A stretch of 64,000 bases of DNA from Hydrogenimonas sp. SS33 (GTDB lineage Bacteria; Campylobacterota; Campylobacteria; Campylobacterales; Hydrogenimonadaceae), in assembly GCF_040436365.1 (NCBI RefSeq), contig NZ_AP026369.1, positions 1,427,501-1,491,500 on the forward strand. Reading direction: 5' to 3'. Position 1 is the first letter of the stretch; each line of letters starts with the position of its first letter. Below, piece by piece: positions 5,301 through 19,455 of this stretch. The notes beneath the pieces are model-generated. The model had not been told where the DNA came from. It ran no database searches and was given only the letters and a program-made list of their open reading frames with translations. The translations under genes and the position numbers were made by a program.

Positions 5301-5437
5301 CAGTGAGCAGTGAGCAGTGAGCAGTGAGCAGTGAGCAGTGAGCAGTGAGCAGTGAGCAGTGAGCAGTGAGCAGTGAGCAGTGAGCAGTGAGCAGTGAGCA
5401 GTGAGCAGTGAGCAGTGAGCAGTGAGCAGTGAGCAGT
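5301..5437. repeat. Heptanucleotide tandem array, unit GTGAGCA, about 19.5 copies
   Basis: A near-perfect 7-bp repeat begins 4 bp after the polymerase stop codon and runs about 137 bp. It gives repeated LLTAHCS or similar in translation, which is an artefact and not a protein. Its unit differs by one base from the AGTGAAC-type heptamers seen at 8329-8420 and 28614-28644. The spacer 5438-5523 that follows contains no gene I can recognise. Confidence 0.97.
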
Positions 5438-5523
5438 ATCAGCGAAGCTGATTTTGTATGTGTTGTCAAGGATTTTCGTCAATCCTACGAAATTTTAAAC
5501 TGCGAATCATTCTCAACGCATCC

Positions 5524-5628
5524 CAATGACCAATGACCAATGACCAATGACCAATGACCAATGACCAATGACCAATGACCAATGACCAATGACCAATGAC
5601 CGACACCTAACGACCGACACCTAACGAC
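5524..5628. repeat. Heptanucleotide array CAATGAC x11 followed by two 14-bp repeats
   Basis: Positions 5524-5600 are eleven exact copies of a 7-mer. Then 5601-5628 is a 14-bp unit (CGACACCTAACGAC) repeated twice, which is itself two diverged heptamers. The array ends inside the last codons of the macrodomain gene (stop at 5621-5623), so the repeat has reached the coding sequence and probably supplies its stop codon. Confidence 0.96.
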
Positions 5629-16466: not shown

Positions 16467-17177
16467 ATGAAAAAGAGTGGTTCCTATATAAAAAACGGAC
16501 CGGATATCGATGAGAGATGCTTCTACTGCGCAGAAAAGCTCAACCGTCTGAAAGACGGACGCGTGCAGTGCAAGAGGTGCCGGCGGCGCTACGCCCCCAA
16601 AAAGCTCTCCCGTCAATTGGCGATGGCCTCCGCCTTCTGCCGCGACCGAAGCGCCAGAGAGGCTGCCGAAGAGCTGGGCATCAGCTACGCTACCGCCCTT
16701 CATTTTTACCAAGATCTCCGACGAAGCGTGCTGGCCCGGCTCGAAGCGGATTATGAAGCGGCCAGAGAGGAGATAGACCAATACGAAGAGACCCTCTACC
16801 TCGACCACAACAAACGGCACGACAAACGGCACATCTTCGAGGCGCAAAACTTCCTGACCTTCGCCTATGGCCCGAAGGTCTACAACATTCTTCTGCCTTC
16901 CCTGGAGCGCTACAAGCAGAGCCTCGTGGACGATGGGTTGACCCAACAGTACTGGGAAGAGTTTTCCCGCTTTCTGATCTTCCACCGCATCGCCAAACTC
17001 GAAAGCCGCGAAAACACCATCGAACGCTTCCGGCGCTATTTCGACACCTTCATGAAAAACTACCGGGGAATCAAGCGGGAGAATTTCATCTACTATCTTA
17101 AGGAAGCGGAGTTCAAGTTCAACTACGGCGACAAGGCTTTCGACACCCTGGTCGAGCTTATGCGTCAAGGCCGTTAA
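16467..17177 (+). CDS. Zinc-ribbon/HTH protein, transposase-like N-terminus; possible regulator
   Basis: A 236-residue protein. Residues about 15-75 resemble the N-terminus of IS1595-type transposases: a zinc ribbon (CFYC ... CKRCRRRYAPKK) followed by a helix-turn-helix (SAREAAEELGISYATALHF). No DDE catalytic domain follows; the rest is helical and charged, with Tyr/Phe and Arg-rich repeats. AAGGAAG precedes the ATG at 16467. It is divergent from the nickel permease/hyp operon and overlaps the 3' end of hypF tail-to-tail by 20 bp. I infer a domesticated DNA-binding protein; regulation of the hydrogenase genes is a guess from position. Confidence 0.65.
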   Translation: MKKSGSYIKNGPDIDERCFYCAEKLNRLKDGRVQCKRCRRRYAPKKLSRQLAMASAFCRDRSAREAAEELGISYATALHFYQDLRRSVLARLEADYEAAREEIDQYEETLYLDHNKRHDKRHIFEAQNFLTFAYGPKVYNILLPSLERYKQSLVDDGLTQQYWEEFSRFLIFHRIAKLESRENTIERFRRYFDTFMKNYRGIKRENFIYYLKEAEFKFNYGDKAFDTLVELMRQGR

Positions 17178-19455
17178 GCCCCCACCACACCTGCCCCAAA
17201 GAGACGGCGGCGTCGTTGGGTGGGAGTCGGCGCGGTAGAAACACGTTGCGTTTTTGCAATCGCGGCAGAAGCCTCTCCATCAAGGTCCGGTTCTGAAAAA
17301 CACCGCCGGCAAGGATGACCGGCAGGTCGGGATAGCGCCCGCAGAGCGCAACGACCGTTGCGGCCAGCCCGTCGATAAAGGCCGAGGCCGAAACCTCCTG
17401 CCCCCCGATCAAACGCCTCAGCAGCGGTTCCCAATCGATGATGCCATCTTTAAGTACCAGTAATTTTCCATCTTCCATCTTCCATTTTCCATCTCTAATA
17501 GCCTGCGCTTCCAGCAACAAACCGCTCTCCCCTTCGTAGCTCACCTCCTGGCAAAGCCCCGTCAAAGAGGCCACAGCATCGAAAAGCCGGCCCATGGAGC
17601 TGGTGATCGGCGCATTGGCCTTTCGCGCCCAGGCTCTGTGCAGCAGGCGGATCTCTTGGGGGTCGAAGGTGGCGACCGTCGGGCTCTTTAGCGCCAGCAC
17701 CTCCTCCAGGCCCAAAAGCTCGAAAAGCATCCCCAACGCCGCGCGCCGGGGCTCCCTGACCGCCTTTTCGCCGCCAAGCAGTCGGAAGGGGCGCAGCGAG
17801 GCGACGCGTTCGTAAGCGTTGGCATCGCACAGCAGCGCCTCTGCGCCCCAGATCGTTCCATCCTCTCCATATCCGGTGCCGTCCCAGACGATCGCCAGGG
17901 CGCTGTCGCGCCAACCATGCTCCGCCATCACCGCCAGGGCGTGGGCGTAATGATGCTGTATTTTTTGAAGTGAAAGGCAAGAGGTATGAGGCGCTTCGAT
18001 TCTGTTTTGGGCCCATTTGGTGCTTTCATAGCCCGGGTGCAGGTCGCTGACAATAATTTCTGGCTTGAAATCATAGAAACGTTCGAAGGTTTTGACAGTG
18101 CGATCGAAGTACTCCACCGCTTCGATCCCGGCCAAATCCCCAATATGGGGGCTCACAACGATTTTGTCATCCAGGGCCAGGGCGATGGTGCTCTTTTGGT
18201 TGGCCCCCACACCCAGAAGCGGTTTTTCGACCTTTCTCTCAAGAGGCAGTGTCAACGGCGCAATTCCCCGGGCCACCCGCAGCCACTGCACCCTGCCGCC
18301 CACAAGCTGCGCCACGCTGTCATCGCAGGCGTTGACAATCTCCCGGTTATGATCGAGCATGGCATCAACCACATGGCCCAGTTTCAGACGAAGCGCCTCC
18401 CCGTCACGGATGATCGGTTCGTCGCTGAGATTGGCGCTGGTGGCGACAAGAGGTACATCCAAAAAGTCAAAGAGTAAATAGTGCAGCGGCGTATAAGGGA
18501 ACATCAAACCGATGCGGTCGATCCCCGGAGCGACAGGGGAGTGTCGGATTTTGGATTTTGGATTTCGGCGTTTTCGCATCAGGACGATGGGGCGCTCTTT
18601 GGAAAGCAGCAGCGCCTCTTCGTCCGCGTCGATCTTCGCCAGCCTCTTGGCCACTTCCAGATCTTTGACCATCAACGCGAAGGGCTTGGAGGGGCGGCGT
18701 TTGCGGCGGCGCAACTCGGAAACCGTCTCGGCATTCGTGGCGTCGCAGAGCAGATGAAAGCCTCCCAGCCCCTTGACGGCGACGATCTTTCCCTCCCGGA
18801 TCATACAGGCTGCTTCCTTGATCAGCCTGTTCTGCTCCCCATCTTCCATCCTCCATCTTCCATCTTCCATCTTGTGCCAAAGCTCCAGAACCGGCCCGCA
18901 TTCCGGGCAGGCGATGGGCTGGGCATGGTAGCGGCGGCTGGAGGGGTCTTCGTATTCGATCCGGCATCTTTCGCACATCGGAAATTCGGCCATGGAGGTA
19001 TTGGGCCGATCGTAGGGGACGGTACGGATGATGGAGTAGCGGGGGCCGCAATCGGTGCAGGTGATAAAAGCGTGCCCAAAACGCCGGTCGTCTGGGTCGC
19101 GCATCTCTTTCAGGCAGGCATCGCACACGGCCATGTCGGGACTGACGGCTGTCGATTTTTCGGACTTGGCGCTGGAAGAGAGAATCTCGAAGCCTACATA
19201 CCCAGAGGCCGGGACTGCCCGTACCTGCATCTCGTCGATACGGGCCAAAGGGGGAAGCTCCGCGGGCAGTGTTTCCAAAAACCCCTCCAGCGCGCTCTCT
19301 TTGCCTTCGATGAGCGCTTCGACCCCTTTTTCGTCGTTTCGGACATAGCCGCCAAGCCCGTAACGTCTGGCCAGTCGGTAAAAATAGGGCCGGAAGCCGA
19401 CCCCCTGAACGATGCCGGTGATCGTGAGGTGAAAGGCGGAAATCTTTTGGGGCAT
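17158..19455 (-). CDS. hypF: Carbamoyltransferase HypF
   Basis: A 765-residue protein that uses carbamoyl phosphate to carbamoylate HypE, the source of the CN ligands. Domains in order: acylphosphatase (about 6-95, GIVQGVGFRPYFYRLA), two zinc fingers (CDACLKEM...CTDCGPR, CERCRIEY...CPECGP), YrdC-like (about 220-390, VKGLGGFHLLCD) and Kae1-like (about 395-765; QKIQHHYAHALAVMAEHG, ILAGGVFQN). Three loops contain heptamer-repeat DNA translated as KMEDGRWRMEDGE, NPKSKIRHS and KWKMEDGK; each keeps the frame and lies between conserved blocks, so the enzyme is probably functional. It follows hydE and overlaps a convergent gene by 20 bp. Confidence 0.96.
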   Translation of the reverse strand: MPQKISAFHLTITGIVQGVGFRPYFYRLARRYGLGGYVRNDEKGVEALIEGKESALEGFLETLPAELPPLARIDEMQVRAVPASGYVGFEILSSSAKSEKSTAVSPDMAVCDACLKEMRDPDDRRFGHAFITCTDCGPRYSIIRTVPYDRPNTSMAEFPMCERCRIEYEDPSSRRYHAQPIACPECGPVLELWHKMEDGRWRMEDGEQNRLIKEAACMIREGKIVAVKGLGGFHLLCDATNAETVSELRRRKRRPSKPFALMVKDLEVAKRLAKIDADEEALLLSKERPIVLMRKRRNPKSKIRHSPVAPGIDRIGLMFPYTPLHYLLFDFLDVPLVATSANLSDEPIIRDGEALRLKLGHVVDAMLDHNREIVNACDDSVAQLVGGRVQWLRVARGIAPLTLPLERKVEKPLLGVGANQKSTIALALDDKIVVSPHIGDLAGIEAVEYFDRTVKTFERFYDFKPEIIVSDLHPGYESTKWAQNRIEAPHTSCLSLQKIQHHYAHALAVMAEHGWRDSALAIVWDGTGYGEDGTIWGAEALLCDANAYERVASLRPFRLLGGEKAVREPRRAALGMLFELLGLEEVLALKSPTVATFDPQEIRLLHRAWARKANAPITSSMGRLFDAVASLTGLCQEVSYEGESGLLLEAQAIRDGKWKMEDGKLLVLKDGIIDWEPLLRRLIGGQEVSASAFIDGLAATVVALCGRYPDLPVILAGGVFQNRTLMERLLPRLQKRNVFLPRRLPPNDAAVSLGQVWWGLNGLDA
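17466..17493. repeat. Heptamer tract TTCCATC x4 inside hypF
   Basis: Four consecutive units (one with a terminal T) in frame within the Kae1-like part of hypF. On the coding strand it reads as the Asp/Gly/Lys/Trp/Met-rich peptide KWKMEDGK. Same unit as the 18837-18871 tract. Confidence 0.9.
18546..18566. repeat. Heptamer tract GGATTTT x3 inside hypF
   Basis: Two exact copies and one variant (GGATTTC), in frame in the YrdC-like part of hypF. They encode the NPKSKI peptide between RPIVLM and the conserved GLMFPYTPLH block. Confidence 0.85.
18837..18871. repeat. Heptamer tract TTCCATC x5 inside hypF
   Basis: Five units, the first two imperfect (CCCCATC, TTCCATC, CTCCATC, TTCCATC, TTCCATC), in frame in the linker between the zinc fingers and the YrdC-like domain. 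Because 3 x 7 bp equals 7 codons, the peptide repeats as KMEDGRW/RMEDGEQ. Confidence 0.9.

Follow-up and report, generated by a model that had tools for sequence, protein, structure and literature searches.

Rickettsia palindromic elements, repeat DNA of a defined, palindromic sequence, lie in frame within unrelated genes. Among tandem heptanucleotides, simple sequence repeats with this unit length have been reported in bacteria by Mrazek et al. in 2007 (as cited in PMC4679880) and in Calothrix (as cited in PMC4692102). The GGGNATC repeats of Xanthomonas and Nostoc (Rehm et al. 2015, PMC4692102) are dispersed, mostly intergenic and preferentially built of four units. The H4 elements of Geobacter metallireducens (PMC2700814) consist of four tandem heptamers of one unit family, occur both within and between genes and are predicted to act in regulation. 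The TAACTGA repeats of Beggiatoaceae (MacGregor 2015, PMC4679880) are heptamer arrays with one dominant unit, some of them in reading frames, near protein ends or in hypothetical proteins, and their insertion into coding sequence has already been suggested. In Borgs, which are archaeal extrachromosomal elements, tandem repeats within reading frames create disordered regions and evolve fast, and the coding repeats are perfect at the amino-acid level, with strong selection reported (PMC9879509). Both this class of repeats and its occurrence in coding sequence are already known (PMC4679880, PMC2700814).

Here we analyze heptanucleotide tracts within hypF of Hydrogenimonas sp. SS33 and within other enzymes of Campylobacterota. 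With the Rickettsia elements they have in common only in-frame repeat DNA, being tandem arrays of variable units that are not palindromic, and no inverted repeat spanning the hypF tracts was found. Head-to-tail 7-nt units occur in this genome above chance and above other periods; as in the bacterial heptanucleotide repeats, period 7 is dominant, units are many and most arrays are intergenic, but here the tracts also recur at homologous loops of conserved enzymes, with units that differ by genus. The four-unit preference, the dispersal and the mostly intergenic location are shared with the GGGNATC repeats, and a GGGAATC-type unit is present in CarB of this genome; here, however, the length preference extends to units without GGG, there is no overall inverted-pair bias, and in the hypF units GGAAGAT and AAAATCC neither G nor C occurs three times in a row, a run of three G in each unit being, with four or more units, the mark of the quadruplex repeats. 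Compared to the TAACTGA repeats, the units here are many and lie in internal loops of core enzymes and, compared to the Borg repeats, the tracts are short, their unit is variable and they do not form perfect amino-acid repeats. The recurrent filling of permissive loops of conserved enzymes is a real and general, although little described, role of heptanucleotide tracts in these bacteria. In the literature searched, mostly non-subscription, we found no precedent for tracts that recur in equivalent enzyme loops while differing in unit, for a length peak independent of the unit or, in what is reported on the Geobacter H4 elements (PMC2700814), for a site-by-site comparison of the kind made here.

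Heptanucleotide arrays in hypF

The window, by which we mean the whole analyzed stretch of 64,000 nt, spans positions 1,427,501-1,491,500 of a complete 2.25-Mb chromosome (single contig, 58% G+C). The product of its hypF gene (Table 1) scores 800.9 bits with the TIGR00143 profile, for which the cut-off is 466.1, and has the Pfam domains expected of HypF. Inside the intact frame there are three period-7 arrays, as the original prediction held; their coordinates and copy numbers are those given by Tandem Repeats Finder, and some of the copies are mismatched or partial. Preservation of the frame had been attributed to multiples of 21 bp, but none of the three lengths is such a multiple. With 3-5 heptamers each, the tracts are long enough for no more than about 1.7 cycles of a repeat of seven residues, in the peptides KMEDGRWRMED (from residue 195), NPKSKI (from 298) and GKWKMEDGK (from 656). 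These peptides had been thought to lack a counterpart among HypF motifs and, in agreement, they are missing from solved HypF chains, which are shorter at the places of the tracts. In an AlphaFold model built from a shallow six-sequence alignment (mean pLDDT 75), confidence is lowered at the tracts.

Table 1. Features of hypF in the window (positions are those of the window)
Feature	Position	Strand	Residues	Location in protein	Array
hypF	17158-19455	minus	765-aa intact frame	carbamoyltransferase HypF (TIGR00143 and Pfam)	
Site 1 tract	18839-18873	minus	195-206 (variable linker about 191-206)	linker, zinc-finger region to YrdC-like domain	5.0 copies of CCATCTT; coding-strand unit GGAAGAT; 35 nt
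Site 2 tract	18546-18565	minus	297-304 (variable linker about 295-305)	loop within YrdC-like (Sua5) domain	2.9 copies of GGATTTT; coding-strand unit AAAATCC; 20 nt
Site 3 tract	17466-17494	minus	655-664	loop within Kae1-like domain (HypF_C_2)	4.1 copies of TTCCATC; coding-strand unit GGAARAT; 27-29 nt
Site 4	17965-18015 (approximate)	minus	481-497 (variable linker about 482-497)		array-free in this genome

The tracts had also been taken for the same repeats that fill the spacers of this genome. A whole-genome search for TTCCATCTTCCATCTTCCAT with up to 3 mismatches matched only the two hypF arrays and gave no spacer source from which they could have been copied. Since the genome has no other TTCCATC arrays, an origin of these two from its spacer repeats is not supported.

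This HypF is closest to that of G040, a member of another family (74%), with the best match within its own genus slightly lower (72%), which suggests that the gene may have been transferred.

HypF of related bacteria

Across 30 HypF genes, we found 16 period-7 arrays compared to 0.6 expected from codon shuffles, so that their presence is not random. All 16 fall in four variable linkers, as anticipated by the original placement of the tracts in linkers between conserved blocks; these include site 4, where L010, L017 and L024 carry arrays in the corresponding linker. The units at a given site vary from genus to genus. At site 1, the place of GGAAGAT is taken by GGAGAAT/GCAGAAT in L006 and L007, by GGAGAAT together with GGAAAAT in L028 and by GGAAAAT in L025, and at site 2, AAAATCC of this genome is replaced by CTTTTAC in L006 and L007. 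Conservation of the peptides in other genera had been named as the observation that would speak against insertion. Peptides of this kind, MENGKW/IENGKW, do occur at the corresponding linker in the HypF of another family (L028, L025), but they are encoded by slightly different heptamers, which points to recurrence, or to an old site whose unit has drifted, and not to conservation of a motif.

That the tracts are insertions at all three sites was borne out in part. The linkers vary in length among the relatives, with means of 53 nt with arrays and 34 nt without at site 2 and of 66 and 44 nt, respectively, at site 3, and the shorter solved chains agree with this. However, the site 2 linker of the window HypF, the one with GGATTTT, is as long as in its nearest relatives and shows no gap, so that simple insertion is not demonstrated at this site. 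In addition, linkers without a called array retain an excess of lag-7 matches, with a pooled z of 5.7 (overstated in significance because the sequences are mutually related) compared to 1.5 in control windows, as would be expected of decayed arrays.

A protein of about 583 aa encoded in G031 (L077, 222-1970), with zinc-finger-like cysteines, contains a QWKMENGK tract at a place resembling HypF site 1; although it is HypF-like in appearance, a Pfam search with it gave no match.

Tracts in other enzymes

Tolerance of coding DNA to the acquisition of such tracts, another element of the original prediction, is well seen in CarB, PabB, RNase HII and ThiE. RNase HII provides the cleanest example of a filled versus an empty loop: the loop is 75 nt long and empty in 7 relatives and is extended by 24 to 54 nt, with a tract, in 8 others, and species with and without arrays are intermixed inside genera. 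The units of the filled loops include AAAATGG, AGTGAAA, GAATTGA, AAGTTCC and AAAGTGA. In CarB, the tracts occupy the linker that joins the two halves of the protein, with the units GATTCCC here, AATCCAA in G003 and CGGGAAA in G008, in proteins that are about 90% identical. Three species carry tracts in PabB, the linker being shorter in most of the other species, and degraded-looking stretches are present in both CarB and PabB of G016. ThiE has a tract in some relatives and empty-site counterparts as well. One epimerase of this genome carries a tract, as do UbiD, a nucleotidyltransferase and a dihydrolipoamide acyltransferase in relatives. Because different species have different heptamers at the same loops, evolution keeps tolerating such tracts and perhaps re-making them. 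RNase HII and HypF of Campylobacterota, with their empty and filled sites, represent a ready comparative system.

The interdomain linkers of the dihydrolipoamide acyltransferase of G040 (L067, 7517-8998) are for the most part made up of five tracts in succession, each of about 30 nt and with differing 7- and 8-nt units. At the N-termini of an M16 peptidase (L044, 9410-9480) and an outer-membrane efflux protein (L092, 6300-6387), signal-peptide-like sequences (LFTVHCSLFT, FIVHRSLFTV) are partly made of GTTCACT-type arrays, an assignment that depends on the start codon chosen.

Selection on the reading frame

We compared the 23 tracts assigned to validated genes, among which these two are the N-terminal ones, with 115 arrays elsewhere. 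Heptamers free of stops on both strands account for 14 of the 23 coding tracts and for 26 of the 115 other arrays (p = 0.0006), and heptamers with stops on both strands for none of the 23 and 13 of the 115. An open gene by itself requires that its coding strand have no stops, and an excess of heptamers that are stop-free on both strands is what would be predicted if orientation were blind and a filter followed. Whichever of the three frames is used, an array of a stop-free heptamer encodes one cycle of seven residues, and therefore the sole requirement is a net indel divisible by 3. Because such a heptamer reads alike in every frame, a repeat whose unit is not a triplet can give rise to loops, time and again, in enzymes that are conserved and single-copy.

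Selective filtering of the coding tracts, which the original prediction had proposed, is supported by both the stop-free bias and the confinement to linkers. In outline, the view of insertion followed by selection was correct and is partly supported; the three details in which it erred are the multiples of 21, the identity with spacer repeats and the gap at GGATTTT.

Arrays across the genome

Array statistics for this genome were obtained from evenly spread stretches that cover 38% of it (864 kb). Period 7 is represented by 63 arrays, and each of the other periods from 4 to 15, except for the double period 14, by at most 4. The heptanucleotide arrays are dispersed and mostly outside genes, with 9 of the 76 sampled arrays lying within validated genes. 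Array length has a mode at 29-33 nt, or about 4.5 units (26 of 76 arrays here and 48 of 89 in G040), with fewer arrays above it and a separate tail of long perfect arrays, many of which adjoin an 85-nt core element. The peak persists under a looser mismatch penalty, and a strict penalty widens it to 24-33 nt. Most of the arrays lack GGG, and the mode is the same for these units.

A strict unit consensus, CAYTNNN, was rejected in favor of a weak purine-rich motif only (log-likelihood gain of 177 compared to 152 ± 4.6 for letter-shuffled units). Hairpins formed by paired inverted arrays were rejected as well, given that 52 pairs included 21 inverted and 22 direct ones, with no bias. Period 8 is a minor second tandem class of similar total length in the samples of this genome and G040, mostly in the latter (GAGCAACC type). 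In a sample of 298 genomes from the phylum, only 3 have triple arrays of CCAATGA, this genome with 74 matches, and array load thus differs greatly among relatives.

Origin and persistence of the tracts

The explanation that we consider probable is that the tracts are near-neutral heptanucleotide filler of tolerant linkers that has survived a selective filter and has since drifted and homogenized or decayed. The three tracts belong to the bacterial heptanucleotide tandem repeats, abundant here and in some related Campylobacterota, and arrays some four to five units long, or about 30 nt, would arise at many places. A coding tract would survive only if the coding strand of its heptamer were stop-free, if the net indel were a multiple of three and if it fell in a tolerant linker or loop, of which HypF provides at least four. 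The survivors would be fillers of variable linkers rather than functional motifs, presumably close to neutrality; subsequently, the unit would drift and homogenize in place, or point mutation would cause the tract to decay. For their source, we infer as most likely the process that Mrazek et al. proposed in 2007 (cited in PMC4679880), in which DNA synthesis slips by 7 nt or copies a unit.

A comparison between genomes gave greater similarity for the units at one site than for shuffled units (4.83 compared to 3.95), which implies that recurrence and old residence both contribute and in part favors old residence, or constraint on the peptide, over fresh acquisition. The tracts could then be old residents, with one ancient array per linker inherited vertically, drifting and homogenizing and mostly lost, without ongoing invasion. 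The degraded-looking G016 tracts of PabB and CarB, along with the weak lag-7 traces in array-free linkers, fit this possibility. Nevertheless, we regard it as doubtful, in view of the clearly different units at one site (AAGTTCC and AAAATGG in RNase HII; AATCCAA, CGGGAAA and GATTCCC in the CarB proteins with about 90% identity; AAAATCC and CTTTTAC at HypF site 2) and of the mixture of array and array-free species inside RNase HII genera.

The length distribution bears on how the tracts arise. If slippage by single units were the only process, numbers of arrays should fall with length, unlike the observed peak at 29-33 nt; a peak would result either from a balance of expansion and decay or from tracts of about 30 nt being written at once. 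Thus, a dedicated process might write the tracts in a single, cassette-like step rather than unit by unit, as four to five copies of a short template of 7 nt or sometimes 8 nt. We deem this unlikely, and so too its wider form, in which the process would act on genes and spacers alike in several families of the Campylobacterota and might extend to Geobacter, Xanthomonas and cyanobacteria. The mode is sharp in two genomes whatever the unit, adjacent tracts in the L067 linker are alike in length but different in unit, and four tandem heptamers both define the Geobacter H4 elements (PMC2700814) and dominate in Xanthomonas (PMC4692102). On the other hand, expansion, decay and deletion in balance could also yield the peak, which spreads under the strict mismatch penalty, and the distribution of Y1 transposase and reverse transcriptase families does not correspond cleanly to array load. 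If true, writing in one step would be a recurrent source of new protein loops; in any case, the reason for about four copies in bacterial heptamer tracts is a testable question.

That the tracts are retained because the peptide, the DNA or the RNA has a function (regulation, quadruplex formation, phase variation) seems highly improbable. Selection for quadruplexes has been proposed for GGGAATC repeats with their four-unit preference (PMC4692102), but most units here lack GGG and their length mode is unchanged. Because the peak is also present in units without G-runs, which are incapable of forming quadruplexes, we reject quadruplex selection as the cause of four units in those units; G-quadruplexes are not a general cause, and the quadruplex explanation of the four-unit preference is weakened. 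Moreover, the peptides at one site vary between species and many relatives have no tract; a change of one unit would shift the HypF frame, yet nothing marks HypF as a contingency locus. Chance or an assembly artefact is extremely improbable given the excess of arrays over expectation (16 compared to 0.6), tracts shorter than a read, a single complete contig and arrays shared by two related genomes, G007 and G011.

Elements associated with the arrays

The 85-nt core is part of a composite element present at 23 places of this genome (window positions 5301-5601; L185-L207), flanked on one side by an array of AGTGAGA, AGTGGGT, AGTGAGC or AGTGAAA and on the opposite side by an array of CCAATGA or CCCAATG. 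The flanking arrays have about 2 to 20 copies, and the units are uniform inside an array and different between copies of the core. The flanking arrays of the 23 copies show that units both drift and become homogenized in place. Rfam matched only tRNAs in the window, so that a known RNA family was rejected for its array element. A second short hairpin, GGGGCTTCGCCCC, adjoins several arrays, with further heptamers flanking it (L043, 8490-8525; L053, 13260-13310; L054, 15220-15270).

Reverse transcriptase was rejected as the driver since it is absent from the array-rich G040. A Y1 (REP-associated-like) transposase was likewise rejected, given that G007 and G057 have arrays without its form of about 250 aa. 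This form is present in several array-bearing genomes and absent from the array-poor G016 and G042, so that a link between the Y1 transposase and array load may be taken as a lead only. No heptamer arrays were found at the ends of the Y1 transposase genes. Genes of this type (L270, L271, L274) are bounded by inverted GGGGTCAGGTGATAAC-like ends and, with these ends, probably represent a mobile cassette.
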